DNA of 64,000 nucleotides, taken from NCBI RefSeq assembly GCF_001050155.1, contig NZ_LFVY01000001.1, forward strand, positions 124,001-188,000, given 5' to 3'. The translations under genes were made by a program, and so were the position numbers. Origin of the DNA: Nitratireductor soli. Its GTDB lineage: Bacteria > Pseudomonadota > Alphaproteobacteria > Rhizobiales > Rhizobiaceae. Positions within the stretch are counted from its first letter, which is position 1. The number at the start of each line of letters is the position of its first letter. Shown here piece by piece: positions 4,962 through 21,876 of the stretch. The notes below the pieces were generated by a model. The model searched no databases and was not told the origin of the DNA. It worked only from the letters and a program-made list of their open reading frames with translations.

Positions 4962-5016
4962 AAAAAGGATACTAGCAGATGGAAGAATTCCGACAATTTC
5001 TTTTGAGGTAAGGGCG

Positions 5017-7241: not shown

Positions 7242-7418
7242 CTGGTTGTCCTTCATCGGTCATTTGGCAAGCACGCATGTCCACTCCGCCGCAAGGCGAA
7301 CCGCTTCACCTTTCGAGCCATGCGAACGGAGTGGGAGGATGCGGTTCCGGACGCCGGCTGTCCTGCGGAAAGACAGGAGGGTCGCTGCGCGTCAATTGAC
7401 CGATGGCGACGGCGCACC

Positions 7419-7458
7419 GTCAAGCGAGTTAAGCGAACGGGCGATTGAGCAATGCTCA
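7419..7458 (-). promoter_or_regulatory. LysR-regulon promoter A (toward the LLM gene)
   Basis: Reading the minus strand: dyad TGAGCAATGCTCA (7446-7458), 13 nt, then box TTAACTCGCTTGAC (7419-7432), whose last five bases begin a -35. This dyad-spacer-box layout recurs at four other promoters in the window. Confidence 0.72.
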
Positions 7459-7565
7459 AACAACAGGCGGAAAGAACGGGCGATCTGTTGCCGCGTGCGG
7501 TTTCGGCTGATCGACCGAAACTCAAGCGGCACCCTGGAAGGCGGAGCCGAAGCGGCGGCAGAGGG

Positions 7566-7629
7566 TGAGAAAAAATCAATCGGTTGCCCGGTTTAGTCGT
7601 TTGACCCTCATGCGGTCCGTTTCTACCCT
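7566..7629 (+). promoter_or_regulatory. LysR-regulon promoter B (toward the enoyl-CoA hydratase operon)
   Basis: The dyad here is imperfect, TGAGAAAAAATCA (7566-7578). After 13 nt comes TTTAGTCGTTTGAC (7592-7605), identical to the box at 21838. TTGACC (7601-7606), a 17-bp spacer and TACCCT (7624-7629) make a plausible promoter. Confidence 0.68.
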
Positions 7630-7674
7630 TCGGCCAGGATCGGGAATTGCGACAGCGTTGATAAGGGTTTGAAG

Positions 7675-8451
7675 GTGGGTTCAGTACAGTTCTCGGTGAC
7701 GGGCAATGTCGCGACGGTGACGCTTGACCGTCCTGATGCGATGAATGCGATCGACCCGGAAACAGAGATCGCGCTGCTTGACTGCTGGCGGCGCATCGAC
7801 GGCGACGGCGATATTCGCGCGGCGGTCCTGACCGGCGCGGGCGCAAAGGCCTTTTCGGCCGGCGCCGACCTGAAGAAGACGATGCCGCCCGCCGAAAGTT
7901 ACGCCGCCAAGGCTTTCGGTCCGGGCGACCACAGTTTCGTTTCCGGCCTGGCCACCGACAAGCCGCTGATCTGCGCGATCAACGGCTATGCGCTGGGCGG
8001 CGGCCTGGAGCTGGCGCTGGCCTGCGACATCCGCCTCGCCGCGCCGCATGCGCGGTTCGGCCTGCCGGAAGTGAGGGTGGGCACCATTCCCGGCGCCGGC
8101 GGAACCCAGCGCCTGCCGCGCATGGTGGGCGCCAGCGACGCCATGCTGATGCTCCTGACCGGCGATATGATCGACGCTGCCGAGGCCTTGCGCCTCGGCC
8201 TCATCAGCCGCATCGTGCCCGCCGAAGACCTCGTTGCCGAGGCGCAGGCGCTGGCCCGGCGGATCGCCGACAACGCGCCGCTTTCGGTGCGGGCGATCAA
8301 GCGTCTGGTCAAGGAAGGCGGCGCGCTGCCGCTCGACGAGGCAATGCGCCTGGAGCGCCTGGTCTGGGGGCTGCTGCGCGACACGGATGATCGAATCGAG
8401 GGACGGCGGGCGTTTCAGGAGAAGCGCGCGCCGCATTATGTCGGCCGGTAG
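7675..8451 (+). CDS. Enoyl-CoA hydratase/isomerase (crotonase family)
   Basis: A 258-residue crotonase-fold enzyme acting on CoA thioesters, normally adding water to a 2-enoyl-CoA. The oxyanion region AFSAGADLK, the CoA loop GYALGGGLELALACDIRLA and LPEVRVGTIPGAGGTQRLPR are intact. Both catalytic glutamates of hydratases are present (in GGLEL and LPEV). GTG 7675 is preferred because AAGGG lies 7 nt upstream; TTG at 7669 is too close to that site. It is the first gene of an operon with the two CoA-transferase subunits and an ABC ATPase, behind regulon promoter B. Confidence 0.9.
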   Translation: MGSVQFSVTGNVATVTLDRPDAMNAIDPETEIALLDCWRRIDGDGDIRAAVLTGAGAKAFSAGADLKKTMPPAESYAAKAFGPGDHSFVSGLATDKPLICAINGYALGGGLELALACDIRLAAPHARFGLPEVRVGTIPGAGGTQRLPRMVGASDAMLMLLTGDMIDAAEALRLGLISRIVPAEDLVAEAQALARRIADNAPLSVRAIKRLVKEGGALPLDEAMRLERLVWGLLRDTDDRIEGRRAFQEKRAPHYVGR

Positions 8452-8531
8452 CATGCATTCCATGGAATGGCCGCGCCCCATCCCTGAATGCGTTGCAAAT
8501 GCCGGCCCGGCCGGAGGAGACGTGAAGCGGA

Positions 8532-9242
8532 ATGATCGACAAGCAAGTGAAGGATATCGCCGAAGCGCTGTCGGGCATCGCCAACGGGGCGTCCGTCCTG
8601 GTCGGCGGCTTCGGCGCCGTCGGGCAGCCGAACGCCCTGCTCGACGCCCTGGGAGATTCGGGGCTGACGGATCTCACCGTGATCGCCAACAATGCCGGGT
8701 TCGAGCCGGACATCGGTCTTGGACGGCTGATCGGCAAGGGCTGCGTCAGGAAGATGATCTGCAGCTTCCCGCGCGGCTCGTCGACCTTCGACGCGGCGTA
8801 CAAGGCGGGCCGGATCGAGCTCGAAGTGGTTCCGCAGGGAACGCTGGCCGAGCGCATTCGGGCGGGCGGCGCCGGCGTTCCGGCGTTCTACACGCCGGCC
8901 GCCGTCGGCACGCAGCTGGCCGAGGGCCGCGAGACACGGGTGATCGACGGGCGCGAATATCTGCTCGAATATGCCCTGACCGCCGACATCGCCCTCGTCG
9001 AAGCGTGGCGGGCCGATCGCTGGGGCAATCTCACCTATCGCGGCAGCGGGCGAAACTTCAATCCGATCATGGCCATGGCGGGCCGGCTGACGATCGTCCA
9101 GGCGCAGCACATCGTGCCGCTCGGCGCCATCCGGCCGGACGATGTCGTCACCCAGGGGCTGTTCGTCAATCGCGTCGTGCATGTGCCGGGCGGCGATCCG
9201 CCCGTCTCGCGGGTCGCAACGGCCGAAGGAGGCGCGAAATGA
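8532..9242 (+). CDS. CoA-transferase family I, subunit A
   Basis: A 236-residue alpha subunit of a 3-oxoacid-type CoA-transferase. The N-terminal glycine-rich motif VLVGGFGAVGQPNALLDAL and the later GNLTYRGSGRNFNP stretch are typical of PcaI/ScoA/AtoD relatives. With subunit B it would move CoA from a donor such as succinyl-CoA to an organic acid. The start follows a GGAGG-like site (GGCCGGAGGAGAC). Its last codons overlap the start of subunit B (ATGA at 9239-9242), consistent with coupled translation. The exact acid substrate is not readable from sequence. Confidence 0.9.
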   Translation: MIDKQVKDIAEALSGIANGASVLVGGFGAVGQPNALLDALGDSGLTDLTVIANNAGFEPDIGLGRLIGKGCVRKMICSFPRGSSTFDAAYKAGRIELEVVPQGTLAERIRAGGAGVPAFYTPAAVGTQLAEGRETRVIDGREYLLEYALTADIALVEAWRADRWGNLTYRGSGRNFNPIMAMAGRLTIVQAQHIVPLGAIRPDDVVTQGLFVNRVVHVPGGDPPVSRVATAEGGAK

Positions 9243-9901
9243 CCGCCGGCAACGCCAAGCCCTATCGCAGCCGGAACAAGAACGAAATCGCCCGGCGCGC
9301 GGCGGCCGATATTCCCGAAGGCTGGTACGTCAATCTCGGCATCGGGCTGCCGACGCTCGTCGCCGACCACATACCGCCCGACCGCGAAGTGGTGCTGCAC
9401 TCGGAAAACGGCATTCTCGGCATGGGGCCCGTGCCGACCGCCGAGGAAGTCGACCCGTGGCTGATCAATGCCGGCAAGGAGAATGTGACGCTGGTGGAGG
9501 GCGCATCGCTGTTTCATCATGCCGACAGTTTCGCCATGATCCGCGGCGGCCATCTCGATCTGTGTGTGCTCGGCGCCTATGAGGTGGCGCAGAACGGCGA
9601 TCTCGCCAACTGGACAACCTCGTTCAACGACCGCGTGCCGGCCGTCGGAGGGGCGATGGACCTGTCGGTCGGCGCGCGCAATGTGTGGGTGATGACGTCG
9701 CACACGACGAAGGACGGACAGCCGAAGCTGGTGGAGCGCTGCAACTATCCCTTGACGGCATCGAGCGCGGTGACGCGCATCTACACCGATCTTGCCGTAC
9801 TGGATGTGTCGCCGACAGGCTTTCTGGTCATCGACATGGTCGAGGGACTGACCCGCGAGATGCTGCAGGGCCTCACCGCCGCGCCGCTGCGTTACGCGTG
9901 A
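9239..9901 (+). CDS. CoA-transferase family I, subunit B
   Basis: A 220-residue beta subunit. YVNLGIGLPTLVADHIP near the start and HSENGILGMGP around residue 60 are the family landmarks; the Glu of SENG is the residue that forms the covalent glutamyl-CoA intermediate, so the enzyme should be active. AVGGAMDLSVGA and the C-terminal VIDMVEGLT segment complete the domain. The start ATG overlaps the stop of subunit A by 4 nt. Together they likely activate or recycle CoA in the island's catabolic pathway. An ABC ATPase follows 68 nt downstream. Confidence 0.9.
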   Translation: MTAGNAKPYRSRNKNEIARRAAADIPEGWYVNLGIGLPTLVADHIPPDREVVLHSENGILGMGPVPTAEEVDPWLINAGKENVTLVEGASLFHHADSFAMIRGGHLDLCVLGAYEVAQNGDLANWTTSFNDRVPAVGGAMDLSVGARNVWVMTSHTTKDGQPKLVERCNYPLTASSAVTRIYTDLAVLDVSPTGFLVIDMVEGLTREMLQGLTAAPLRYA

Positions 9902-9969
9902 CAGGACGGTGCGACGGAGCCGGCTCCGATTTCACGCCAGGGCCGGGACAAGAGCGAAGGGGAAGGGGA

Positions 9970-11142
9970 ATGAGTGAAGCTTCGACATCGACGTTGGAGG
10001 TGAGCGGCCTGAGCAAGATCTTCGTCATGAGCGAGGACGGCATCGCCGGCGGCATTCGCGAGGCGAGTTTCTCCCTCAAGCCGGGGACGTTCTTCACCCT
10101 TCTGGGGCCGAGCGGCTGCGGCAAGACGACGACGCTGCGCTGCATCGCCGGCCTGGAGCGGCCCGACAGGGGCACGATCCGCCTGGGCGACCAGGTGCTG
10201 TTCGACGGCGCGAGCGGCGTGACGGTTCCGCTGAACCGGCGCAACATCGGCATGGTCTTCCAGTCCTATGCGATCTGGCCGCATATGACCGTCTTCGAGA
10301 ATGTCGCCTTTCCGCTGCGGGTGTCGAAGGACCGCAAGTACAGCAAGGCCGAAACCACCGGCATGGTCGACGATGCGCTCAGGCGTGTCGGGCTGGACGG
10401 TTTTCAGACGCGCTCGTCGACGCGGCTTTCGGGCGGCCAGCAGCAGCGCGTCGCGCTGGCCCGGGCCATCGTCCGCCAGCCCAAATTGCTGCTTCTCGAC
10501 GAGCCTCTGTCCAATCTTGATGCGACCCTGCGCGATGAGATGCGCACCGAGCTGAAGCGGCTGCAGCAGCAGGTCGGCATCACGACCATCTATGTCACGC
10601 ACGACCAGACCGAGGCGCTGGAAATGTCCGACCTGGTGGCGGTCATCGACAAGGGCAATGTGGTGCAGATGGGGCCGCCGCGCGAAATCTACGGCCGGCC
10701 GAAAAGCGCTTTCGTCGCCGGCTTCGTCGGGGCGACGAATCTGGTGCGCGGCAAGGTCACGCGCCCGCTCAACGGCAAGGGCCTGGGTGCGGTGGTGCTC
10801 GAGGGCGGCGAGGAAATCGCTTGCGCCTTTCAGGAGATGCTGCCCGCCGGAGAGGACATCGCCGTGTCGATCCGCCCCGAATCGATGGATCTCCAGCCGC
10901 TCGGCGCACCGGCGCGCGACGGCTTCAACCGCCTGAAGGGGACCGTCACGCTGAGCGGTTTCCTCGGCAATATGATCCGCTACAATGTGAAGGTCGGCGG
11001 GCGCACGTTCCAGATCAACATGGAGCCGGAAACGGCGTTCGAGATCGGCTCCGACGTGTTTCTCGAATTCCCCGGCAGCGCGGCGCTCGGCGTGCCCTGG
11101 GGGATTTCGGGCAGCCAGAAGGCCGCGGTGGCGCACACATAG
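9970..11142 (+). CDS. ABC transporter ATPase (FbpC/PotA type)
   Basis: A 390-residue importer ATPase. Walker A is GPSGCGKT (residues about 47-54), the Q-loop is FQSYAIWPHMT, the signature is LSGGQQQR, Walker B is LLLLDEPLSNLDA and the switch His is in THDQTEA. Residues from about 250 form the TOBE regulatory domain. The ATG follows AAGGGGA. No permease or binding protein lies beside it; the matching ones are probably 21960-24760, controlled by the same promoter type. Orphan placement at the end of a CoA-metabolism operon is the odd point. Confidence 0.9.
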   Translation: MSEASTSTLEVSGLSKIFVMSEDGIAGGIREASFSLKPGTFFTLLGPSGCGKTTTLRCIAGLERPDRGTIRLGDQVLFDGASGVTVPLNRRNIGMVFQSYAIWPHMTVFENVAFPLRVSKDRKYSKAETTGMVDDALRRVGLDGFQTRSSTRLSGGQQQRVALARAIVRQPKLLLLDEPLSNLDATLRDEMRTELKRLQQQVGITTIYVTHDQTEALEMSDLVAVIDKGNVVQMGPPREIYGRPKSAFVAGFVGATNLVRGKVTRPLNGKGLGAVVLEGGEEIACAFQEMLPAGEDIAVSIRPESMDLQPLGAPARDGFNRLKGTVTLSGFLGNMIRYNVKVGGRTFQINMEPETAFEIGSDVFLEFPGSAALGVPWGISGSQKAAVAHT

Positions 11143-11154
11143 AGGCGGGTTGCA

Positions 11155-11237
11155 GTCAGGTGGAATTACCTGACGCCCGCGTAAATGCAGAAAAACAAAG
11201 AGATAGACCGGTTTTGAGTGGGGGCGCTGACGCCCCC
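11155..11237. terminator. Two hairpins in the convergent gap
   Basis: GTCAGGT/ACCTGAC (11155-11161 and 11168-11174) and a GGGGGCG/CGCCCCC hairpin (11220-11237, loop CTGA) fill the space between the ABC ATPase and the convergent MmgE/PrpD gene. Neither is followed by a clear T-run, so termination here is a guess from position. Confidence 0.35.
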
Positions 11238-11244
11238 AAGCCCA

Positions 11245-12609
11245 TCAAGCATTCAAATCCGCGATGCTGCCCACATTCTGCAGGTGCAGGAGCTGGTCGA
11301 ACAGGCGGCGCGCCTTCGCCTCGTCGAGACGGCCATGCGTGCAGGCGGCGAATTTGGTCCACAGCTCCTCCTCGCTCATGCGCCGGGTCCAGTGTCCGCG
11401 CGCATAGGATACGCTCGGGCTCTCAAGAACGGTTCCATCCTTCAGATGAATGCGGATGCCGCCGCTGTAGCCCAGATTGGGCTGGGTGTCGGCGGGGATC
11501 GTCTTGTCGACCGCCGGCGCGATGACCTTCATCAGCGCCTGCACGTCGGGGCGGCTGTGGAAGGTCTCACTCAGCTCGGCGAATGTCCCCCGGCGGGCGA
11601 TGATCGCGCCGGCCACGGCGAGCGTGATGCTGTGGCTCGGCACGAAGTTGATGGTCGACGGCGATTTCGAGACGACCGCATATTGCGCTTCGCTGATCAG
11701 CACCTCGACCCGCTCCACCGCCTCGGGCGAAACGTCATGTTCCCTGACCAGGTCGAGCGTGCCGTCGATGGCGCGCTGGTTCATGTTGCCGAAGGGATAT
11801 TGCTTGATGTTGATGCCGATCGTCTCGAGGCGCCAGGCGCTGCCGAGATCGGCGATCGGCGTGTCGAGATCGACCGCGCCCTTCGGCGACAACGCGACCA
11901 GCATGCCGCGTCCGGGGCGCTCGAGCCCGTCCTCGGGCGCCGTCATGCCGGCCTTGGCCAACCGCGCCGCCATGACGCCGGCCGCCGCGCCCCGACCGAC
12001 CTGGAACGGCCCGACATCGGTATCGAAGCTGGCGGTGATGCCGCCCGGCATGGCGGCGGCGATGCCGATCGCCCGGAGCGTGGTTTCCGCGTCGTGGCCG
12101 TGCAGGTTGCAGACGGCGATGGAGGCCGCCGTGGCGCCGAAGGCGGCCGTCGCGTGCCATCCCTTGCCGGCGTAGGAATCGGGATCGCGCTCGGCCAGGC
12201 GCGCCCAGGCCTCATAGCCCGCCGCATAGGCGCGCACCACATCGCGCCCCGACGCGCCGAAGGCTTCGGCCTCGGCGAACAGGGCCGGCATGAGGATCGT
12301 GCTGGTGTGGGTTCCGGTGAAGGCGACGTCGTCATAGACGACGCTGGTCGTGGTGACCGAGTTGACGAGCGTCGCATCGACCGCCGATGCACGCTCGTCG
12401 CCAAGGAAGATGCGGGCCTCGCCCGTCTTGCCGCGCGTGCCGACGCTGTCGAGCGTGAGCTTTGAGACGGGCGTGCCGATCCCCGACATCATGACGCCGA
12501 CCGTGTCGGTGATGCCGGTGTTGATCGCCTCGACCGCCAGGCCGGGAATGTCGTCGAACTTCAGTTGCGCGGCGAACGCGGCGAGCGTGCGGGAGATGGG
12601 TGCGGGCAT
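11245..12609 (-). CDS. MmgE/PrpD-family protein
   Basis: A 454-residue protein of the MmgE/PrpD fold, which includes 2-methylcitrate dehydratase, cis-aconitate decarboxylase and iminodisuccinate epimerase. Recognisable parts are NTGITDTVGVMMSGIG near the start, the middle segment GWHATAAFGATAASIAVCNLHG, and a C-terminal YARGHWTRRMSEEELWTKFAA. The GWH-x-T and helical core are conserved in the family. ATG 12609 has GAGAGGA upstream; longer frames lack a ribosome site. It is the last gene of the GST operon and likely handles a small di- or tricarboxylic acid, though this is inferred. Confidence 0.85.
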   Translation of the reverse strand: MPAPISRTLAAFAAQLKFDDIPGLAVEAINTGITDTVGVMMSGIGTPVSKLTLDSVGTRGKTGEARIFLGDERASAVDATLVNSVTTTSVVYDDVAFTGTHTSTILMPALFAEAEAFGASGRDVVRAYAAGYEAWARLAERDPDSYAGKGWHATAAFGATAASIAVCNLHGHDAETTLRAIGIAAAMPGGITASFDTDVGPFQVGRGAAAGVMAARLAKAGMTAPEDGLERPGRGMLVALSPKGAVDLDTPIADLGSAWRLETIGINIKQYPFGNMNQRAIDGTLDLVREHDVSPEAVERVEVLISEAQYAVVSKSPSTINFVPSHSITLAVAGAIIARRGTFAELSETFHSRPDVQALMKVIAPAVDKTIPADTQPNLGYSGGIRIHLKDGTVLESPSVSYARGHWTRRMSEEELWTKFAACTHGRLDEAKARRLFDQLLHLQNVGSIADLNA

Positions 12610-12715
12610 CGGGCTGTTTCCTCTCTCGATAGAATTCCTTGTGTACCTGGCAGGGCCGGGCGAAACCGCCATGACCGGCGCACGGATGCCTCCGCGCCGC
12701 CGGCGTGTCTCCACG

Positions 12716-13096
12716 TCAGGCGAGCCTGAACAGCGGCAGGAGGTCTTCGTCACGTTTGCCGATGGCGATCCGCACCGATCCGCCGATGCGGATCGCCTCC
12801 AGATCGCTGTCGACGATGTTGGTCATCATGGTCGGCCCCTCCGCCAGCGTCACATAGGCGATGGCGTAGGGCTCCTTCGCCTTGCGCATGATGCTGTAGG
12901 AGTAGATCGTGCCGTCGCCGCTTGCCTCGCGCCACTCCGTGTCGGCGCTGGTGCAGAATGGGCAGATGGCGCGCGGATACCAGTGGGCGCGGCCGCAGGC
13001 GCGGCAATGCTTGAGCAGGAAACGTCCCTCGCCGAGGGCGGACCAGAAGGGCTGCGTTTCGGGGTGATGCTCCAGCGCATCGGACAGGATCGACAT
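12716..13096 (-). CDS. DUF35 Zn-ribbon/OB-fold protein, partner of the 13105 thiolase-like protein
   Basis: A 126-residue DUF35 protein. The N-terminal rubredoxin-like zinc ribbon shows CRACG and CPFC pairs (HCRACGRAHWYPRAICPFC), followed by an OB-fold (GTIYSYSIM to AYVTLAEGPTMMTNI). DUF35 proteins act as small subunits of thiolase-fold enzymes, for example the steroid side-chain aldolase complexes of actinobacteria. It lies 8 nt after the thiolase-like gene at 13105, so the two probably form one complex. The start at 13096 (MSILSDAL) has GGAGT upstream. Confidence 0.87.
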   Translation of the reverse strand: MSILSDALEHHPETQPFWSALGEGRFLLKHCRACGRAHWYPRAICPFCTSADTEWREASGDGTIYSYSIMRKAKEPYAIAYVTLAEGPTMMTNIVDSDLEAIRIGGSVRIAIGKRDEDLLPLFRLA

Positions 13097-13104
13097 GACA
13101 ACTC

Positions 13105-14274
13105 CTATTCGCGTTCGAGGATCAGCGTTGCCGAGCCGTGGCGCGTGCCGAGCAGGCCGCCCGTGCCGTGCGCCAGCGCCAGGTCGCAACCGTCGACCTG
13201 TACGGCCGGATGGGCCTCACCGCGCAGCTGGCGCACCGCCTCGATGATCTTGGTCATGCCGCCGCGATGGTTGGGGTGGTTGTTGCACAGGCCGCCGCCA
13301 TCGGTGTTGAAGGGCAATCTGCCGATGCCGGAGATGAGATTGCCGTCGGCGACGAAGCGGCCGCCTTCGCCCTTCTTGCAGAAGCCGAGGTCTTCCAACT
13401 GGACGATCACGGTGATGGTGAAGCTGTCGTAGAGGGAGACATACTTGATGTCGGCCGGGGTCACGCCGGCCTCGCCGAAGGCGAGCGGAGCCGTGGTGGC
13501 GCCGGCCGAATAGGTCAGATCCACATCGCCGCCCGACAGGTGCTTGATCGCCTCGGCGGCGCCGCGCACTTTCACCAGCGGGCGCTTGAGGCTGCGGGCG
13601 ATCTCCGGACGGGTGACGATCACCGCGCCGCCGCCATCGCTGATGACGCAGCAATCGAGCCGGCGCAGCGGATCGGCGATGATAGGCGAGTTGGCCACAT
13701 CCTCGACCGTCACCACATCGCGCAGCACGGCATTCGGATTGTGCTGGGCGTGATGCGAGGCGGCGACCTTGACCCAGGCGAGCTGCTCGGGCGTCGTTCC
13801 GAACTGGTGCATGTGGCGCATGGCGCACATCGCGTAGGCGTTGAGCGTCGTCATGCCGAAGGGCTGTTCCCAGGGGAAATCCGGCTGCATCGGATTGTCG
13901 GTGCGCTGCGGCGCGCCCTTCTGCGCCCCTTCGCTGCGCGGACGGCCGGCCAGCGTCACCAGGGCGATGTCGCATTTGCCGGCGGCGATGGCCTGGGCGG
14001 CGTGGTTGACATGAAGAATATAGGAGGAGCCGCCGATATTGGTCGAATCGGCATGCCGCACCTTCAGGTTCATATAGTCGACGAGCGACAGCGGACCGGT
14101 GCCCGGAGCATCGCCGCCGCAGAAATAGCCGTCGACATCGTCTTTGCCCAGCCCCGCATCCTGCAGCGCGCCGAGCGCCACTTCCGCATGAAGCTGGGCG
14201 AGCGACTTGTCCGGCGCCTTGCGCGTGGGATGTTCGTACGCGCCGACAATGTAGGCTTTACCGCTGATGCTCAT
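13105..14274 (-). CDS. Thiolase-like protein (SCP-x/Ltp2 type) without the usual Cys
   Basis: A 389-residue thiolase-fold protein of the lipid-transfer/SCP-x group. It starts AYIVGAYEHPTRKAPDKS and carries YDSFTITVIVQLEDLGFCKKGEGG and FNTDGGGLCNNHPNHRGG, the usual C-terminal landmarks. At the expected N-terminal nucleophile region the sequence reads NIGGSSYILHVNHAAQAI, with no cysteine. This fits thiolase-fold aldolases that work with a DUF35 partner better than true thiolases. Its start overlaps the GST stop (ATGA 14271-14274), and the DUF35 gene follows directly. Confidence 0.85.
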   Translation of the reverse strand: MSISGKAYIVGAYEHPTRKAPDKSLAQLHAEVALGALQDAGLGKDDVDGYFCGGDAPGTGPLSLVDYMNLKVRHADSTNIGGSSYILHVNHAAQAIAAGKCDIALVTLAGRPRSEGAQKGAPQRTDNPMQPDFPWEQPFGMTTLNAYAMCAMRHMHQFGTTPEQLAWVKVAASHHAQHNPNAVLRDVVTVEDVANSPIIADPLRRLDCCVISDGGGAVIVTRPEIARSLKRPLVKVRGAAEAIKHLSGGDVDLTYSAGATTAPLAFGEAGVTPADIKYVSLYDSFTITVIVQLEDLGFCKKGEGGRFVADGNLISGIGRLPFNTDGGGLCNNHPNHRGGMTKIIEAVRQLRGEAHPAVQVDGCDLALAHGTGGLLGTRHGSATLILERE

Positions 14275-14933
14275 TGTGTCCTTGCTTTCTCCGCTTGTCC
14301 TGTTCCCGCCGCGCCCTGCTCGTCGAAATAGGCGGTCGCCACGACCGAGGAGCGGGCGCCGGCGATTGCGAACCAACGCGCCAGCGCCGGATATCCGTCG
14401 CGCCACGGCCATGCCGCCGAAAGACGAAAATCGACGTAGCAAAGGGCGGCAATTATCGTGATCTGGCTCATATCGAAGGGAGCCTCCGCCATGCGGTCCG
14501 CTTCCGCGTCGAGGCTGGAAAAGATGCACGGCAGTTTCCGCATGATCGCCGCGATGCGCAGATCCGAATGGCCCGGTTGGCAGCGCGCCTGTTCGGCAAG
14601 CAGGTTCATCAGCGTGGCGATCAGGCCGTCGCCGACCGCCAGGCGACGCATCATCGCCAGTTCGGCGGCGATCTCGCGCGGATGCAGCCGCCCTTCGCCC
14701 AGCACCAGATCGAGGTAACGACAGATGACCGCCGAATCGTAGAATACCTCGCCATCGTCGAGGACCAGTGTGGGGATCTGGCCGAGCGGATTGATCTCCA
14801 GAAGCCGTGGATTGGACGCCTTCGCGGTGACGGTCATCATCTCGATGTCCATGTCGCCGATCGTGCCGGTCTCATGCGCGGTGATCAGAACCTTGCGCAC
14901 ATAAGGCGATCTCGACGACCCGTAGAGTTTCAT
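14271..14933 (-). CDS. Glutathione S-transferase family protein
   Basis: A 220-residue GST. Residues 1-80 form the thioredoxin-like domain with YGSSRSPYVRKVLI (Ser near position 9 is the likely glutathione-activating residue) and IPTLVLDDGEVFYDSAVICRYLD, which includes the cis-proline and the E/D-S glutathione contact. The remainder is the helical domain. It is the first gene of the operon GST - thiolase-like - DUF35 - MmgE/PrpD, and overlaps the next gene by 4 nt. In a catabolic operon it could be an isomerase or a thiol-conjugating step; that is inference. Confidence 0.88.
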   Translation of the reverse strand: MKLYGSSRSPYVRKVLITAHETGTIGDMDIEMMTVTAKASNPRLLEINPLGQIPTLVLDDGEVFYDSAVICRYLDLVLGEGRLHPREIAAELAMMRRLAVGDGLIATLMNLLAEQARCQPGHSDLRIAAIMRKLPCIFSSLDAEADRMAEAPFDMSQITIIAALCYVDFRLSAAWPWRDGYPALARWFAIAGARSSVVATAYFDEQGAAGTGQAEKARTQ

Positions 14934-15099
14934 TGCTTGTCGCCACCCAGTTCAAAAAAAGTCAACGATCGAGTGCCTTGCCAGAATACGCCGGTTGACC
15001 GTTATCGGTGCTTTCTTGATCGACGCAGATTCAGGTATCGTCGCCGTGACGGTTGATTGACGCCGGAATTTGCGTCAACATCAACAATAATCGCCTGCC

Positions 15100-15164
15100 T
15101 AGACAATTCGAAATCATGACGATGGTCAATTGACCATTCGGTACGGCACAGTGAGTAATTCTCA
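15100..15164 (-). promoter_or_regulatory. LysR-regulon promoter E (GST operon and LysR gene)
   Basis: Dyad TGAGTAATTCTCA (15152-15164) lies 13 nt from the minus-strand box AATGGTCAATTGAC (15125-15138), whose end starts a -35 (TTGACC); TGTCTA at 15100-15105 is a possible -10. The dyad also lies 10 nt before the LysR start codon at 15174, so binding there could limit the regulator's own synthesis. Confidence 0.68.
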
Positions 15165-15173
15165 AGGGTGACC

Positions 15174-16133
15174 ATGTCAAAACGCCTTCCGCCGCTCAAC
15201 GCCCTGCGCGCCTTCGAGGCCGCCGGGCGCCATGTCAGTTTCACCAAGGCGGCGGAGGAGCTGTTCGTCACACCCGGCGCGATCAGCCGGCAGATCAAGC
15301 TGCTGGAGGACGTGCTCGGGCTGGAATTGTTCGAGCGGACGAGCCGCGAGTTGCGCATTCCCAACGAAACGCGCGAATATGCGATGGCGCTGGGCGACGC
15401 CTTCGACCAGATCAACCGCGCCACGCAGCGTCTCTTGACCGCCCACCGGGCGCGCTCGCTGCGCATCCATTGCCCGATGACCTTCACCTTGCGGTGGCTG
15501 ATGCCGCGCCTGCCGCTGTTTCATCGGCTCTACCCGACCCGCGAGATCCAGCTGACGACGACGCTTCTGCCGATCCCGGCCAATCTGATCTATCTGGGCG
15601 ATGTCGATGTGGTCATCCAGATGGGCAAGGGCGACTGGCCGGACCTGATCGCCCACCGGCTGGCCGGCAGCGCGCTGGTGCCGGTGTGCAGCCGCGACTA
15701 TGCCGCGGCGATGGGCGGCAAGATGACCGTCGACATGCTGGCGGAGGCGACGCTGTTGCGCTCGATGGCGCGGCCGGACGACTGGCGCGACTGGCTGGAC
15801 GCCGCCGGCGGCGAGGCGATCGACGACCAGCGCGGCCTGCATTTCGAGAGTTCGAGCCTCGCCTACCAGGCGGCCATCGAAGGCATCGGCATCGCCATCG
15901 GCCAGGTGTCGCTGATCGCCGAGGATCTGGTCACGGGGCGCCTGGTGACGCCATTCGATTTCGTCCACGACAATGGCAACGCCTATTACCTGACCTATGC
16001 CAAGCAGATGGAGAACGATTCCCGGCTGGTCGAGTTCAGGGACTGGATCCTGGCGCAGGTGGTCGAATTCGACGCCTGGCTGGTCCAGTCGCAGGGCCGG
16101 CTGGACCGCTACACCGTTTCACAGAGGCGTTGA
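15174..16133 (+). CDS. LysR-family regulator of the GcvA type (proposed master of the island)
   Basis: A 319-residue LysR protein. RLPPLNALRAFEAAGRHVSFTKAAEELFVTPGAISRQIKLLEDVLG (residues about 4-49) is the GcvA/AmpR-type helix-turn-helix region, and residues 90-300 form the effector domain. ATG 15174 has AAGGG upstream; GTG 15168 is the alternative. It is divergent from the GST operon, and a T-N11-A dyad sits just upstream of its start. The same dyad occurs at four other promoters of the island, so it is the natural candidate regulator. The gene ends inside the convergent CaiB gene (15-nt overlap). Confidence 0.88.
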   Translation: MSKRLPPLNALRAFEAAGRHVSFTKAAEELFVTPGAISRQIKLLEDVLGLELFERTSRELRIPNETREYAMALGDAFDQINRATQRLLTAHRARSLRIHCPMTFTLRWLMPRLPLFHRLYPTREIQLTTTLLPIPANLIYLGDVDVVIQMGKGDWPDLIAHRLAGSALVPVCSRDYAAAMGGKMTVDMLAEATLLRSMARPDDWRDWLDAAGGEAIDDQRGLHFESSSLAYQAAIEGIGIAIGQVSLIAEDLVTGRLVTPFDFVHDNGNAYYLTYAKQMENDSRLVEFRDWILAQVVEFDAWLVQSQGRLDRYTVSQRR

Positions 16134-17291
16134 GGCGGGTCCGACCTCGATGATGCCGGCCTCTGCCAGCGCCGTGATTTCGCGCTCATCATAGCCGCCC
16201 ACCTCCGCCAGCACGGCTCGCGTGTCCACGCCAATGCTCGGAGCCGGGCGCTCGATGGCCAGCGGCATGTCGTCGATCTGAAATGGGAAGCCCTTGACCA
16301 GGCGTCCGTCCTGGCGCTGCAGGGCATGCGACCAGAACGCGCCTTCACGGTGCAGGATTCCAGCGCCGTCGAGCACCGGCGCCACGGCCAGCCCGATCCT
16401 GCCCAACGCTGCAACGGCCTCTCCGCCGCGCATGCCGGCGATGTGGCTGGAGAGCGCTGCATGCAGCCGGTGCAAGGAGGATTGCGGATCGATGTCGAGC
16501 AGGGCCGAAAGCGCCGCCCGGTCGGTCTCGGCGACGGACACGGCGATCCATGCATCGTCGGCGGCCATGAAACAATCCTGCAGCAAATAGGGCTCCTGCG
16601 CGTTGCCATTGCGGCCGACATTGCCGCCCATCGATGCGGAAATGAAGGCGTCGCCGACCAGAAACGAGGTCAGGTCCCGCTGCGACAGATCGAGATGGAC
16701 GGCCGGACCGCCCTGGTGGTGCACAGAACGCAGCGCCGTGGCGATCATGCCGGCGGCGAAGATGGCGGCCACCTGGTCGGGATAGTTGACGTCGCGCCCG
16801 CTGATCACCGGGCCTTCATCCGCATAGCCGGTGCGCCACGCCAGGCCGCCGATGGCTTCCAATGTCGAGCCATAGGATACGTGGCGCGCATCCGGTCCCG
16901 TTTCGCCCTGGCTGGAAACCGAGGCGAGGACGATCCTGTCGTTGGCGGCGCGGAGCGTGTCGAAGGAAAGGCCGAGCTTGGGCAGCACGCCGCGGCGGAA
17001 ATTCTCCACCACCACGTGGCTGGCGGAGACCAGGCGCAGCATCACCTCGCGGCCGCGCGCCTGCTTCAGGTCGATGCTGATCGCCTGCTTGTTGCGGTTG
17101 GTGGCGCGAAAGAGCGGCGGCAGGTCGTCGGGATCGGGACCTTCCCCGGTCCACTGGCGAAACGGATCGCGGTAGGTGGGCGATTCGATCTTGATCACCT
17201 CGGCGCCGAGATCGGCGAGGATCGCCGATGTCGCCGCGCCGGCGGTGATGATGCCGAGGTCGAGAACGCGATAGCCTGCAAGGGCGCTCAC
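16119..17291 (-). CDS. CaiB/BaiF family III CoA-transferase
   Basis: A 390-residue family III CoA-transferase. Landmarks are LAGYRVLDLGIITAGAATSAILADLGAEVIKIESP at the start, RNKQAISIDLKQARGREVMLRLV, and VVVENFRRGVLPKLG. The segment VNYPDQVAAIFAAGM carries an Asp at the place of the catalytic aspartate of formyl-CoA transferase. Such enzymes transfer CoA between acyl-CoA and a free acid. The start is GTG 17291, overlapping the stop of the preceding gene as GTGA. It is the last gene of its operon and overlaps the LysR tail. Confidence 0.87.
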   Translation of the reverse strand: MSALAGYRVLDLGIITAGAATSAILADLGAEVIKIESPTYRDPFRQWTGEGPDPDDLPPLFRATNRNKQAISIDLKQARGREVMLRLVSASHVVVENFRRGVLPKLGLSFDTLRAANDRIVLASVSSQGETGPDARHVSYGSTLEAIGGLAWRTGYADEGPVISGRDVNYPDQVAAIFAAGMIATALRSVHHQGGPAVHLDLSQRDLTSFLVGDAFISASMGGNVGRNGNAQEPYLLQDCFMAADDAWIAVSVAETDRAALSALLDIDPQSSLHRLHAALSSHIAGMRGGEAVAALGRIGLAVAPVLDGAGILHREGAFWSHALQRQDGRLVKGFPFQIDDMPLAIERPAPSIGVDTRAVLAEVGGYDEREITALAEAGIIEVGPASTPL

Positions 17292-18388
17292 GACAGGCCG
17301 GCCACGGCTCTGGCAGGGGCGTGCCCGGCGGAGGAAGACAGGACCAGGCCGTTCCACAGCACCGGCAGGCGCGGGGCCTGGACCGGCGCCTGCTCACCGG
17401 GCAGGGGGGGCAATGCGGTGAACATGGCGCGGGCGAGATTGTGCGGGTCGTCGATCAGTTCGTCCGGGCTCCAGACGGGGCCGAGCGGCAGCCGGTGGGA
17501 CGCCGCCTGTTCATGGAGCTGCCGCCGCGTGCGCGACAGGAACACCGTTTCGATGATGTCGGCGAGTTCGGCGAGGTTGCCGAGGCGGCCTTGCCGGGTG
17601 GCGAATTTCGCCTGTCGAAGCCGATCGTCGCCGACCATGTCGCACAGATGCGGCCAGTCCGGCTCCTGGTAGACCAGGGCGATCCATCCATCGGCGCAGC
17701 GCAGCACCTGCCATTCCGCCGCCGCACCGGCGCGCCCCGGCGGCACCGGCGCGCCGGCTTCCAGCGGCGCGGATTTCCAGTTCAGCCAGACGACCACGTC
17801 GAGCAGATTGGCGCGGACCGTCATGGTCGGCAGCGCTCGCCGCCTGTCGGCAAGCAGGGCCGCAAGCCCGCAAAACGCCGAGAGGCCGAGCGCATAGGCT
17901 TCCTGGTGCCCGCCGAGCTTCAGGGGCTTGCGATCCGGGTCGCCGACCATGTTCAAAAGCCCACCCAGGGCGGAGATGGTGAATTCCGTTGCCGGAATCT
18001 CGGCATCCGCATGCCTGCCGCCGAACAGCGATAGAACCGCAACATTTGCCGGCAAATCATCTGCCGCGATCAAGCGATGCACATGCCGATCGACGATGGC
18101 GATATCGGCCCGGCGCAGCAGCCGTGAGACGAATTCGCGGTCGCCGGGATTGCCCCACATGGTCGACTTGCCGGCCGACAGGAACCGCTCGACGGCGTCG
18201 TTTTCCGCGCCCCAATAGGGTTGCCGGGCCTGTTGCTGCTCGTCATCGCCGATGATCCTTATGACGCGCGCGCCCAGATCGGCGAGGATGCGCCCGGTCA
18301 TCGCGGTGCTCAGCCGCAGGGCGCTGCCGAGCGGTCCCGCGGCGGCCTCGACGACAACCAACCCCTCATAGGGACGCTCGATCTTCAT
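17288..18388 (-). CDS. Second CaiB/BaiF-like CoA-transferase, diverged
   Basis: A 366-residue protein resembling family III CoA-transferases (YEGLVVVEAAAGPLGSALRLSTAMTGRILADLGARVIRI at the start). The place where an Asp is expected, before the A-x-x-L-x-A helix, reads KLGGHQEAYALGLSAF, with no aspartate in the usual spot. It may be a non-catalytic partner of the adjacent 16119 protein, or act on a different ligand. ATG 18388 overlaps the upstream stop by 4 nt, so translation is coupled. The Asp assignment is by eye and should be confirmed by alignment. Confidence 0.8.
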   Translation of the reverse strand: MKIERPYEGLVVVEAAAGPLGSALRLSTAMTGRILADLGARVIRIIGDDEQQQARQPYWGAENDAVERFLSAGKSTMWGNPGDREFVSRLLRRADIAIVDRHVHRLIAADDLPANVAVLSLFGGRHADAEIPATEFTISALGGLLNMVGDPDRKPLKLGGHQEAYALGLSAFCGLAALLADRRRALPTMTVRANLLDVVVWLNWKSAPLEAGAPVPPGRAGAAAEWQVLRCADGWIALVYQEPDWPHLCDMVGDDRLRQAKFATRQGRLGNLAELADIIETVFLSRTRRQLHEQAASHRLPLGPVWSPDELIDDPHNLARAMFTALPPLPGEQAPVQAPRLPVLWNGLVLSSSAGHAPARAVAGLS

Positions 18389-19116
18389 TTCAGGGTGCGG
18401 TCCCACAGGTTGAACATCTTTGTCCAGGTCGCCTCGGCGGCGGCGGGCTGGTAGGCCCGGCCGGCGGCGAAACAATAGCCGTGGCGGCTGTCGGGATGAA
18501 TCTCGATCTCGTGCTCGACGCCGGAGGCGGCCAGCGCCTCGCGCATGGCGGCGATGGTCTCGGGAGGCGTGGCGGTGTCCGTTTCGGCGATGCCGAAATA
18601 GAGTTCGCCGCGAACCTGCGACAGCAGCCTGTGCGGCGAGCCTTCGTCCTCCGTCACCAGTCCAACGCCATAAAGCGAGGCTGCCGATGCGAAGCGGTCG
18701 CCGAAGTAAGCGGCCAGGGAGATCGCATAGCGTCCGCTCATGCAGAACCCGACGCAGGAAACCTTGTCCGCCTTGGCGGCCATCTCGCCGTCGAGATATG
18801 CCAGAAGCCCGGCCGTGTCCTCGTTGACGCCGCCATTGTCCAGGCTGCGCAGGCAGGCACCGACGACGGCGGACATGCGCTCGTCGCGGCGCGGCAGGTC
18901 GAAGCGGATGGTCCCCAGCCGGTAGTAGAGGTCGGGCAGGGCGCAGTAATAGCCGCGCGCCGCGATGCGCCGCGCCATGTCGCGCAGCTCCTCGCGGATT
19001 CCCGGGGCATCCATGTACAGGATGACGACGGGATAGGGGCCGTCGCCGTCAGGACGCACTGTAAATGTCGGCATGCGGCCATGCTTCGTGACGACCGGCA
19101 CTTCCTTTTCATGCAT
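18385..19116 (-). CDS. Dienelactone hydrolase family protein
   Basis: A 243-residue alpha/beta-hydrolase of the dienelactone hydrolase family. The nucleophile elbow is GFCMSGR, with Cys as in carboxymethylenebutenolidase; the acid is probably the Asp of IAETD and the base the His of DSRHGY. The early YPVVILYMDAPGIREELRDMARRIAARGYYCALPDLYY stretch is typical. It would open a lactone or cleave a related ester in the cytoplasm. Its start overlaps the DUF35 gene by 8 nt and its end overlaps the next CoA-transferase by 4 nt. Confidence 0.88.
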   Translation of the reverse strand: MHEKEVPVVTKHGRMPTFTVRPDGDGPYPVVILYMDAPGIREELRDMARRIAARGYYCALPDLYYRLGTIRFDLPRRDERMSAVVGACLRSLDNGGVNEDTAGLLAYLDGEMAAKADKVSCVGFCMSGRYAISLAAYFGDRFASAASLYGVGLVTEDEGSPHRLLSQVRGELYFGIAETDTATPPETIAAMREALAASGVEHEIEIHPDSRHGYCFAAGRAYQPAAAEATWTKMFNLWDRTLK

Positions 19117-19537
19117 CTTCGCCTCGATTCAATTGCGTGGATTTCTGGTTTTGCAGCGTGAAAGCATGCTGCAGACGGTCGAGATGGCGGCGATAGGTGA
19201 TCGTCACCCGTTCACCGATCCAGCTGCCGTCCGGTTCGTCTCCAACGAGGTTCGATACGACGATAGGCCCTTCCGCCAGCCGCACGGCGATGGCGTTGTA
19301 GGGCTGCGGATGATCGTCGAAATACTGCCGGTGGAAAACGACCCATGACAGGATCGTGCCATTGCCGGACACCTCGGCCCACTCATAGTCCAAGGCGTTG
19401 CATTCGGCGCAGATCGGCCCAGGCGGATAGCGGAAGGTTCCGCATGCGCTGCATCTGGGAAGCGCCATCTTTCTGCGCTCGATGCTCTCCCACATGGGAA
19501 CATCGTAGAGCGTCATGATCCGTTGTGCGTTTGCCAT
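19109..19537 (-). CDS. DUF35 Zn-ribbon/OB-fold protein, partner of the 19541 thiolase-like protein
   Basis: A 142-residue DUF35 protein. The zinc ribbon appears as CSACG and CAEC (PRCSACGTFRYPPGPICAEC), followed by an OB-fold with GTILSWVVFHRQYF and YNAIAVRLAEGPIVVSNLVG. It follows the thiolase-like gene by 3 nt, the same order as at 12716-14274. The duplication of a thiolase-like/DUF35 pair suggests two separate carbon-carbon bond steps or two substrate specificities in the pathway. Confidence 0.86.
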   Translation of the reverse strand: MANAQRIMTLYDVPMWESIERRKMALPRCSACGTFRYPPGPICAECNALDYEWAEVSGNGTILSWVVFHRQYFDDHPQPYNAIAVRLAEGPIVVSNLVGDEPDGSWIGERVTITYRRHLDRLQHAFTLQNQKSTQLNRGEDA

Positions 19538-19540
19538 GGT

Positions 19541-20707
19541 CTAGCGTCCATAGATGATCGAAACCGCCTTGCCGGCGACATCGGAACTGTAGTGAACGTG
19601 GCGGCAGTCCGGAACCTGGCGTTCACCGGCTTCGCCGCGCACCTGCCGCACCGCCTCGATCTGGTGATTCCAGCCCTGCATGTAGCTCTCCGACAAATGG
19701 CCGCCGCCGGTGTTGACCGGCAGGCCCCTGGCAAGCGAGATGCCGTGCTCGCGCATGAATTTGCCGGCTTCACCCGGCTTGCAGTAGCCGTAGCCTTCCA
19801 GCGCCAGGGGTATGTGCAGCGAGAAACTGTCGTAGATCTGCAGGGCGTCCATATCCTGCGGCCCGAGCGAGGCCATGTTGAACACCGCCTCGCCGACCGT
19901 CTTCTGCGCCGGCTGGTAATAGTCGGTCAGGCGCGGCTCCAGGCTGGTCGCCCCGCGATTGAGATCGTGGCGCGCGATGCCGTGGATGGGAACCGGCGCC
20001 CGGCCGATGCGCTCGGCCTTGCCGGCTTCGGCGACGATCAAGGCAACGCCGCCATCGTTGATCAGGCAATAGTCGAAGATGTGCAGCGGCTCGCAGATGA
20101 AGGGCGAGGCGAGATAGTCGTCGATGGTGATCGGCTTGCGCATCAGCGCCGCCGGGTTCCTTGCAGCCGCCATCCTCTGCGCCACCGCCACCTCGCCGAG
20201 CTCGGCTTGGCTCATGCCGCGCTCTTCCATATAGCGCCGCGCCATCAGGGCGTAGAGCGCGCCCTGCGAGGTGAACCCCCAGGGGGCGTGATAGACATAG
20301 GAGAGAAAGGCGCCGCCGCCTTGCGCATCGGCGCCGCCGTAGTTCACCAAGGCCGAGCGCTGGTCGTTGCCATAGACCAGCGCGACCACCTCGGCCTGGC
20401 CGGAGGCGATCGCCATGCACGCTTCCATCACGCCGAGCATGGCGTCGGCCTGCCCGCCCCAGCGGACATCGAGCCCCAGCAACTCGCCGACCCGCTCGTA
20501 GGCGGTCGTCGGTCCGACGATCAAGCCGTCGATCTGGTCGCGGGAAATGCCGGCGTCGGCCAGGGCGCCGACGAATGCCTGGGCGGCGTAGCCATAGGAA
20601 TCGTGCGGCTTCTGAGCGGCTCTGACACGCGCATGATCGCCCGGCCAATCGGTCTGCCCGATGCCGATCACCGAGGCTGCCTTGGCAATCATGCCGACAG
20701 GTTTCAT
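19541..20707 (-). CDS. Second thiolase-like protein (SCP-x/Ltp2 type) without the usual Cys
   Basis: A 388-residue thiolase-fold protein. ASVIGIGQTDWPGD opens the fold; IYDSFSLHIPLALEGYGYCKPGEAGKF and PVNTGGGHLSESYMQG are the C-terminal landmarks. In the region where thiolases have the acyl-accepting Cys, it reads WGGQADAMLGVMEACMAI, with no Cys at the start of the helix. ATG 20707 is preceded by GGAGG. It heads a five-gene operon under regulon promoter C. Like the 13105 protein, it is likely a retro-aldolase-type or related partner of DUF35, not a classical thiolase; this is inference. Confidence 0.85.
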   Translation of the reverse strand: MKPVGMIAKAASVIGIGQTDWPGDHARVRAAQKPHDSYGYAAQAFVGALADAGISRDQIDGLIVGPTTAYERVGELLGLDVRWGGQADAMLGVMEACMAIASGQAEVVALVYGNDQRSALVNYGGADAQGGGAFLSYVYHAPWGFTSQGALYALMARRYMEERGMSQAELGEVAVAQRMAAARNPAALMRKPITIDDYLASPFICEPLHIFDYCLINDGGVALIVAEAGKAERIGRAPVPIHGIARHDLNRGATSLEPRLTDYYQPAQKTVGEAVFNMASLGPQDMDALQIYDSFSLHIPLALEGYGYCKPGEAGKFMREHGISLARGLPVNTGGGHLSESYMQGWNHQIEAVRQVRGEAGERQVPDCRHVHYSSDVAGKAVSIIYGR

Positions 20708-20816
20708 CGATCCTCCATCATGGCCGGTCCGTTGAACGGTGGCCTTTCCGCTGGTCTTGCGAGACGATCCTCGGGAGGCGGCGACGCCCTGCGGGGAACT
20801 CCCGGATTGTCCGGTC

Positions 20817-20880
20817 AGAGTTCTCACTAGGCCGCGGTCAGTCAACCGACTTAACCGTAAGGTCCATTGAGCTAATCTCA
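20817..20880 (-). promoter_or_regulatory. LysR-regulon promoter C (toward the thiolase-DUF35-DLH-CaiB operon)
   Basis: On the minus strand: dyad TGAGCTAATCTCA (20868-20880), 13 nt, box TTAAGTCGGTTGAC (20841-20854), then 17 bp after the TTGACT -35 comes AACTCT (20817-20822) as the -10. The operon start codon is at 20707. Confidence 0.75.
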
Positions 20881-20998
20881 TGCGCAGCGGAGCCGTTGTC
20901 CAGCCACCGGGCCCGGTGGTGGGCGCGAACGGAGGGAGGAGAAGTCAAACGACGATCAGTTTCTCTCTGTTGACAGCGGGCCGGCGACGTCGTGCCCT

Positions 20999-21760
20999 AT
21001 GGGCGGCATCAAGCCGATCGACGGAGGGAAATTGCCGAACGTGGACAGGTTGTGGATCGATGCGAATGGCGCGCGCCTGTGCTGCGACCATCGGCGCGGC
21101 GGGGATCGAACCGTCGTCTTGCTGCACGAGATGGGCGGAAGCCTGGAAAGCTATGACGCCGTCGTCGCGGGTCTTGGCGCGCGATGGAGTGTCTTGCGCT
21201 ATGATCAACGCGGGGCCGGGCGCTCGCAAGCGCCCTCCGGTTCACTCTCCATCGATATGGCCGCTGCCGATCTCGACGGATTGCTCGACGCGCTGTCGAT
21301 CGAGCGACCTGTCGCCCTGGTCGGCACAGCGGTTGGCGCCGGCGTGGCCATCGGCTTCGCCGCACGACATCCCGAAAAAGTCGCAGCGCTCGTCCTCCTG
21401 GCGCCGGCGACTGGCCTGATCGCGGAACACCGCGCCGCGACGATCGAGAAGATCGAGGCGCTGGAGGAGGATCTGAGGCACGGCATCGCGGACAATGCCA
21501 AGTCCGGCCGCCTCGCCACATGGCGCATGCTGGCCGATATGGACCTCGACGCGGATATCGCCGCGCTCGACTGCCCGGTTCTGGTCGCCGCCGGCACAGA
21601 CGATGCCTTCCGCCCGCCGGACCATGTGGCCGATGTGGCGGGCAGGATAGCCGGCGCGCGCTACACCTTGTTGAACACGGGCCATGTGATGGCGATCGAT
21701 ACGCCGGACCTTGTCGTGGCGACCGTGACGGGGTTTCTCGACGAGGTGGGATTCCGATGA
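20999..21760 (+). CDS. Alpha/beta-hydrolase fold protein with Ala at the nucleophile
   Basis: A protein of up to 253 residues resembling 3-oxoadipate enol-lactonase-like hydrolases (VVLLHEMGGSLESYDAVV, LRYDQRGAGRSQAPSG, and a C-terminal GTDDAFRPPDH and NTGHVMAID). The Asp and His of the triad are visible. The nucleophile elbow, normally G-x-S-x-G, reads GTAVG, so the serine is replaced by alanine (codon GCG). It may be inactive or use a different chemistry. The start is uncertain: TTG 21032 follows GGAGGG and may be the real one. No regulon box points toward it. Confidence 0.75.
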   Translation: MGGIKPIDGGKLPNVDRLWIDANGARLCCDHRRGGDRTVVLLHEMGGSLESYDAVVAGLGARWSVLRYDQRGAGRSQAPSGSLSIDMAAADLDGLLDALSIERPVALVGTAVGAGVAIGFAARHPEKVAALVLLAPATGLIAEHRAATIEKIEALEEDLRHGIADNAKSGRLATWRMLADMDLDADIAALDCPVLVAAGTDDAFRPPDHVADVAGRIAGARYTLLNTGHVMAIDTPDLVVATVTGFLDEVGFR

Positions 21761-21811
21761 GTTTTACGCCGCCTGACGCAGCCGGCGGTTCCCGTTTTCC
21801 TGCTGACCGTT

Positions 21812-21876
21812 TGAGGAATCCTCATCGGTTCGGTCTTTTTAGTCGTTTGACGATCGGCGATGATGGTTAGCAACAT
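21812..21876 (+). promoter_or_regulatory. LysR-regulon promoter D (toward the ABC binding protein and permease)
   Basis: Dyad TGAGGAATCCTCA (21812-21824), 13 nt, then TTTAGTCGTTTGAC (21838-21851), identical to the box of promoter B. TTGACG (21847-21852) followed after 18 bp by CAACAT (21871-21876) gives the -35 and -10. Confidence 0.73.

Follow-up and report, generated by a model that had tools for sequence, protein, structure and literature searches.

The 64-kb stretch of the Nitratireductor soli genome studied here (contig NZ_LFVY01000001.1, positions 124,001 to 188,000; below called the window, and numbered from its first nucleotide) contains a catabolic island that includes the gene for a LysR-type regulator of the GcvA subfamily (15174-16133, plus strand). 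Promoters of this island carry a 40-bp composite element in which a dyad TGAG-N5-CTCA is followed, after 13 nt, by a 14-bp box ending in the -35. These 40-bp elements form a real, conserved and specific LysR regulon, and very probably they are the operators of LysR 15174-16133. That the island LysR would bind all six sites identified is well supported, because motif and regulator co-occur in a set of 394 genomes, because one of the sites is located 9 bp from the lysR start and because the sites share the geometry seen at other GcvA-like regulators.

Six composite sites in the window

An earlier note, made from the sequence alone, had described five such sites, each with a T-N11-A dyad at a constant distance from the box. 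All five 40-mers are present as described, at positions 7419-7458 (operator 1, minus strand), 7566-7605 (operator 2, plus strand), 15125-15164 (operator 3, minus strand), 20841-20880 (operator 4, minus strand) and 21812-21851 (operator 6, plus strand). The T-N11-A dyad was seen in each of them; it reads TGAG-N5-CTCA in operator 1, followed by N13 and the box, and TGAG-N5-ATCA in operator 2. The constancy of the gap was borne out as well: when gaps of 0-60 nt were allowed, the window contained four same-strand pairs with the dyad first, and every gap was 13 nt. The five promoters stood, but the regulon is larger than five, as a sixth site, operator 5 (20935-20974, plus strand), had been missed. 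This site has a degenerate dyad and the box region TTTCTCTCTGTTGAC, and counterparts of it are present in both relatives described below.

Operator 1 is located upstream of the gene for a luciferase-like monooxygenase (LLM), and operator 2 upstream of the genes for enoyl-CoA (coenzyme A) hydratase and CoA-transferase, where a conserved -10 sequence (TACCCT/TACCGT) follows at 17-bp spacing. Operator 3 lies between a minus-strand gene group that begins with a glutathione S-transferase (GST)-like gene and the divergent, plus-strand lysR gene. Operator 4 is found upstream of thiolase, OB-fold (oligonucleotide/oligosaccharide-binding), hydrolase and CoA-transferase genes; the long open reading frame (ORF) 19541-20881 overlaps this operator, and therefore the true thiolase start must be located downstream of it. 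Operators 5 and 6 precede a PcaD-like alpha/beta hydrolase gene and the genes for a solute-binding protein and a permease, respectively.

With up to three mismatches allowed, the composite pattern matched four of the five sites described earlier and nothing else in the 64 kb, and 100 dinucleotide shuffles of the window produced no match. The site at the lysR gene, operator 3, falls outside the pattern by its deviating box. Scanned separately, the dyad was found 22 times (at most one mismatch) and the box eight times (at most two mismatches; lysR-gene box not included). A slightly looser pattern, again with up to three mismatches, gave six matches in the whole 5.1-Mb genome and none for the reversed control: the four island sites without mismatch, and two sites on contig 44 with two and three mismatches. 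The half pattern TCA-N13-TTNANTNGTTTGAC (at most two mismatches) occurred at ten places in the same genome (five for the reversed control), six of them with at most one mismatch (four in the island, two on contig 44) and four with two. The earlier note had proposed a genome-wide search, and neither the full nor the half pattern revealed many copies of the motif elsewhere in the genome.

Occurrence of motif and regulator in other genomes

Among 394 genomes of the family the motif was present, at one mismatch or less, in five, leaving 389 without a match; the reversed control gave none. An orthologue of the island LysR (E<=1e-75) is encoded in three of the 394, and these are the genomes with four, five and eight sites. 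The remaining two motif-bearing genomes (G054 and G377, of one genus) have a single site each, next to the start of a different, divergently oriented LysR gene, whose product in G054 contains the LysR helix-turn-helix (HTH) and substrate domains and whose counterpart in G377 is 97% identical and has the same position. The set also includes the six other genomes of the genus to which the window belongs, and these have neither the motif nor the LysR orthologue. In a plasmid collection, LysR matches were found in five records, all below 44% identity, and no match to LLM was found at E<=1e-60; a related island was not found there.

We also scanned 1.84 Mb of other loci with a matrix of the sites. 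Matches above scores of 18, 20, 22 and 25 numbered 7, 6, 4 and 2 for the real matrix and 6, 4, 3 and 1 for the reversed one, whose best score was 25.6. As the reversed matrix nearly equals the real one, scores below about 26 mean little alone. Two loci with such scores (L014, 21.4; L019, 22.7) were counted solely for their position at a lysR start.

A second type of LysR regulator has a near-identical operator (TGAG-n5-CTCA ... TTTAATCGATTGCC) before a major facilitator superfamily (MFS) gene (L140, 7035-7074; L141, 7372-7411). A sequence similar to the TTTAATCGATTGCC-type operator is found beside a LysR gene in Variovorax (L089).

Conservation of the sites in two relatives

The island LysR has orthologues of 91% identity in genome G156 and of 87% in the plant symbiont Mesorhizobium loti LU (G380), and the island segments are 76-82% identical to those of these two relatives at the DNA level where they can be aligned. 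Conservation of the motif in relatives that keep the island, a check suggested by the earlier note, is upheld because all six sites are kept at matching places in both relatives while the spacers drift. The relatives contain a seventh site at the left of the island. When the six orthologous sites were compared across the three genomes, invariant columns made up 90% of the dyad, 93% of the box, 67% of N5 and 46% of N13, and only 30% of the 40 bp downstream of the sites. A further conservation peak is found at the predicted -10 position, at 17-bp spacing. From this -10 region, and hence from a predicted transcription start, the dyad centre is placed near -65, in agreement with the position that had been proposed for it.

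Spacing of dyad and box at other GcvA-like regulators

Of 38 Rhizobiaceae homologues of the LysR gene, 25 have the box motif TCGTTTG (at most one mismatch) on the divergent strand at a distance of 28-52 bp from their start, as against 0 of 38 for the other strand; shifted-window controls gave 0, 2 and 1. The corresponding figures for new loci were 19/55 and 1/55 (19/52 and 1/52 after loci of the first set had been dropped); these 52 consist of an order-level set, which gave 17/28 versus 0, and the phylum-wide set considered in the Discussion. In the available text of PMC5506194, TCGTTTG is part of a primer.

The distance between the two elements was analysed in 167 loci (173 fetched, six duplicates dropped). 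For a pair to be counted, the dyad (T[GT]A-n7-T[CA]A) had to fall within the first 60 nt and TCGTTTG within the first 75 nt, at a distance of 13-50 nt. In 26 of the 27 pairs found the distance was 31 or 32 nt, the island value being 31; when dyads and boxes were re-paired at random 2000 times, pairs at this distance averaged 1.5 and never exceeded 6. This geometry ties dyad and box to one class of regulators without making use of the island.

The composite site at the lysR gene

In each of the three genomes the dyad of operator 3 is upstream of lysR, at 9 bp from the start codon. Its box is a palindrome, of 14 bp in the window (TGGTCAATTGACCA) and with a 12-bp core (GGTCAATTGACC) in all three genomes, and gives TTGACC in either direction. 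A weak -10 of lysR would coincide with the operator 3 dyad. Since the dyad is that close to the lysR start and the palindromic box reads TTGACC both ways, operator 3 would also repress lysR, from which we infer that the gene may be repressed by its own protein.

A second perfect palindrome, GTCAATTGAC, is present at 7391-7400, 18 bp downstream of the operator 1 box; the two relatives lack it at the corresponding position.

Sites outside the island

Contig 44 of the window's genome contains two weaker sites with scores of 33.9 and 28.1, which exceed the best score of the reversed matrix. One is located before an MFS gene, the other overlaps or just precedes an alpha/beta hydrolase ORF. The members of this MFS/hydrolase pair are 59% and 70% identical to those of the pair that adjoins the island in G156, and the site before the G156 hydrolase has a score of 25.4, which by itself is background level. 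We consider with moderate confidence that the contig 44 pair is a displaced part of the regulon; control by another regulator is possible.

Four sites lie outside the island in G380: before the gene of a solute-binding protein, next to which an S58-type peptidase is encoded downstream (L136), before a solute-binding protein and permease (L137), before an alpha/beta hydrolase (L139) and at an AT-rich SnoaL-like locus (L138, G380:C1:24589), the last of which may be a chance occurrence. Solute-binding proteins encoded at L136, L137 and L169 are paralogous to that of the window (47-72% identity), two of these three loci having operators in G380.

Gene content of the island

Gene labels were assigned by Pfam and NCBIfam profile scans. 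The regulator contains the domains PF00126 (HTH) and PF03466 (substrate-binding) and scores 306 bits against NCBIfam PRK11139 (NF008352; cut-off 288). It is the sole regulator among the scanned genes of the block conserved in the relatives. The other LysR protein of the window (4035-5162) had no match at E<=1e-5 in five loci of the relatives; with a loose limit, its best match was weak (26%, E 2e-5) and was to the orthologue of LysR 15174-16133. No gcv genes are present among the scanned island genes; the rest of the genome was not searched for them.

On the left, the LLM gene (6267-7256, minus strand) is followed by plus-strand genes for an enoyl-CoA hydratase (7669-8451; Pfam/NCBIfam), for 3-oxoacid CoA-transferase subunit A (TIGR02429) and a second CoA_trans-domain protein (8532-9901), and for the ATPase of an ATP-binding cassette (ABC) importer (9685-11142), which is PotA/PhnT-like with scores below the equivalog cut-offs and whose true start is probably near 9970, judging from the alignment with a relative. 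The minus-strand region 11245-14933 encodes an MmgE/PrpD protein, a small BbsA-like (OB-type) protein, a thiolase and the GST-like protein, which we take together as one putative group expressed from operator 3. Two class III CoA-transferases, a dienelactone-hydrolase-like protein, a ChsH2-type OB protein and a thiolase-like protein are encoded at 16119-20881 (minus strand) and would likewise form one group, expressed from operator 4. On the plus strand these are followed by the alpha/beta hydrolase gene (20999-21760), whose best NCBIfam match, 3-oxoadipate enol-lactonase, is below the cut-off, and by genes for a PhnS/PhnU2-like solute-binding protein and permease of an ABC importer (21960-24760; below cut-off).

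Just past the island, 24960-30425 encodes a bacterial alpha-2-macroglobulin of 1821 aa with an N-terminal PAN domain. Near the left end of the window, 1466-2167 encodes an ArsR-type HTH fused to a rhodanese domain and adjoins a LysE-type translocator gene.

Relation to F420 biosynthesis

The window LLM passes the cut-off of TIGR03619 for the F420-dependent type (score 170.4, cut-off 166.9) and is a putative user of F420. Its homologues in the relatives are 72-73% identical to it (72% in G156) and are encoded downstream of F420-biosynthesis genes. In G380 (L142, 1804-9655) the left minus-strand site is followed by genes for two radical-SAM (S-adenosylmethionine) proteins, one of them CofH-type, CofD, a CofE/CofC fusion, the LLM and an F420-NADP-oxidoreductase (Fno)-type protein, and then by a porin gene preceded by a weaker site with a score of 34.5. 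In G156 (L037, L166) the first two genes encode radical-SAM and CofH-type proteins, and two unscanned ORFs separate them from the LLM gene.

In the window it is operator 1, the counterpart of the site of the F420 operon, that precedes the LLM gene, and cofD of the same genome is located on contig 53. No site above a score of 14 was found at this contig 53 F420 locus, and therefore control of F420 genes by the operator is proposed for the relatives only. The link to F420 is direct in the relatives and indirect in the window's genome.

Discussion

In the mechanism that we propose, a LysR dimer would occupy the dyad TGAG-N5-CTCA near -65 as the recognition site, and a second dimer of the same putative tetramer would occupy the box, at about -45 to -32, as the activation site adjoining RNA polymerase. 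Upon binding of an inducer, probably a substrate or intermediate of the pathway, the otherwise weak promoters would fire together, so that uptake, the monooxygenase of F420 type and the degradation steps that depend on CoA would be co-induced.

It is unlikely that LysR binds the dyad only and that another regulator, encoded outside the island, binds the box. The core of the box, GTC-N4-GAC, forms a short inverted repeat of its own, and the minus strand carries GTCGTTTGAC at 20944-20953 (G000:C1:144944-144953), inside operator 5, without a minus-strand composite site, as might be expected of a box recognized independently. However, the 31-32 nt spacing in 26 of 27 pairs at GcvA-like promoters argues against two proteins, as does the lack of another regulator among the scanned genes of the conserved block. 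Still less probable is recent duplication of a single promoter cassette, in which case the likeness of the sites would reflect descent instead of function. Nearly the same box at several promoters of one cluster would fit such copying, but spacers and flanks vary from site to site and have drifted from one genome to another around motif columns that are fixed, and the sites face both ways before different genes. That the element would belong to the housekeeping promoters of the organism in general, as its box ending in a -35-like TTGAC might suggest, is refuted by there being six matches in 5.1 Mb at up to three mismatches and no match in 389 of 394 family genomes at one mismatch or less; the probability that we leave to it is next to nil.

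Several observations weigh against assigning the elements to the island LysR as its operators. Binding and the direction of regulation are predictions, the conservation footprint is derived from three genomes only, and the dyad of operator 5 is degenerate. At other regulators, only a minority of the 167 loci yielded both a dyad and TCGTTTG, relatedness of sequence is common among the 27 pairs (13 clusters), and the position test for TCGTTTG was null in a phylum-wide set (2/24 versus 1/24). In sequence the box does not resemble another copy of the dyad, and it is centred at about -38, which disagrees with the -43 given for the second inverted repeat of Escherichia coli GcvA in the available text of PMC5002191. 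Finally, an arginine in the recognition helix that would specify TGAG over TTAG was rejected: in the first set of loci it gave 5/9 versus 5/106 (p = 1.8e-4), and when fixed as a prediction it failed on new loci, with 3/13 versus 5/42 (p = 0.28), or 3/13 versus 5/39 (p = 0.31) without four loci of the first set. A code based on glycine is a candidate alternative that was noticed only later.

From a sequence pattern the analysis arrives at a complete and testable prediction of a regulon, which names the regulator, six promoters within the window and the operators to the exact sequence. We give an even chance to the broader proposal that one GcvA-subfamily LysR co-induces an importer, CoA-dependent degradation and, in the two relatives, an F420 operon, together with a general GcvA-like operator code in which 31-32 nt separate a T[G/T]A-n7-T[C/A]A dyad from TCGTTTG at the divergent promoter of the regulator itself. 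If this is true, the F420 cofactor would be made when its catabolic enzyme is needed, and the code could predict the regulons of many unstudied GcvA-like members, for whose targets the 31-32 nt geometry would be a simple search rule.

The activators of aromatic degradation of the BenM/CatM/CbnR class have a T-N11-A dyad near -65, an activation site at -35, a divergent regulator gene and catabolic targets, all of which are found here too. Unlike these, the island LysR passes the cut-off for the GcvA subfamily, and its activation box, which overlaps with the -35, seems by comparison to be conserved to an unusual degree.

F420-biosynthesis (fbi) operons have been described in aerobic soil bacteria including Sinorhizobium meliloti strains, as far as the available text of PMC8407117 and PMC8498797 goes; according to the former, F420-biosynthesis, LLM and CoA-transferase genes are among those tied to nodule competitiveness in S. 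meliloti strains. F420-biosynthesis genes in rhizobia, and LLM-family genes in the same S. meliloti list (PMC8407117), are common to those strains and the present system, whereas in the two relatives the operator at which the F420 genes start is one that the catabolic island uses as well. The word LysR does not occur in the main text of PMC8498797 and occurs twice in the available text of PMC8407117, about a regulatory region of strain SM11. Among the open PMC matches listed, no title or abstract opening mentions this regulon or a control of F420 synthesis by LysR, which does not amount to absence from print.

The closest comparison is with the gcvA-gcvB operator of E. coli, where the available text of PMC5002191 gives -65 and -43 as the centres of the GcvA sites, ATTAG-n5-CTAAT. 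Both systems have a regulator of the same NCBIfam subfamily encoded by a divergent gene, and an inverted repeat with n5 spacing centred near -65 together with a second element nearer the -35. They differ in the half-site, which is TTAG there and TGAG here (one symmetric change per half, so that ATTAG/CTAAT itself is not matched), and in the second element, another ATTAG-n5-CTAAT there and TTNAGTCGNTTGAC here. The targets differ as well, being here a catabolic island with several gene groups in one cluster. Taken together, the mechanism is of a known kind; what is unusual is the inclusion of F420 biosynthesis in the relatives and the 31-32 nt rule.

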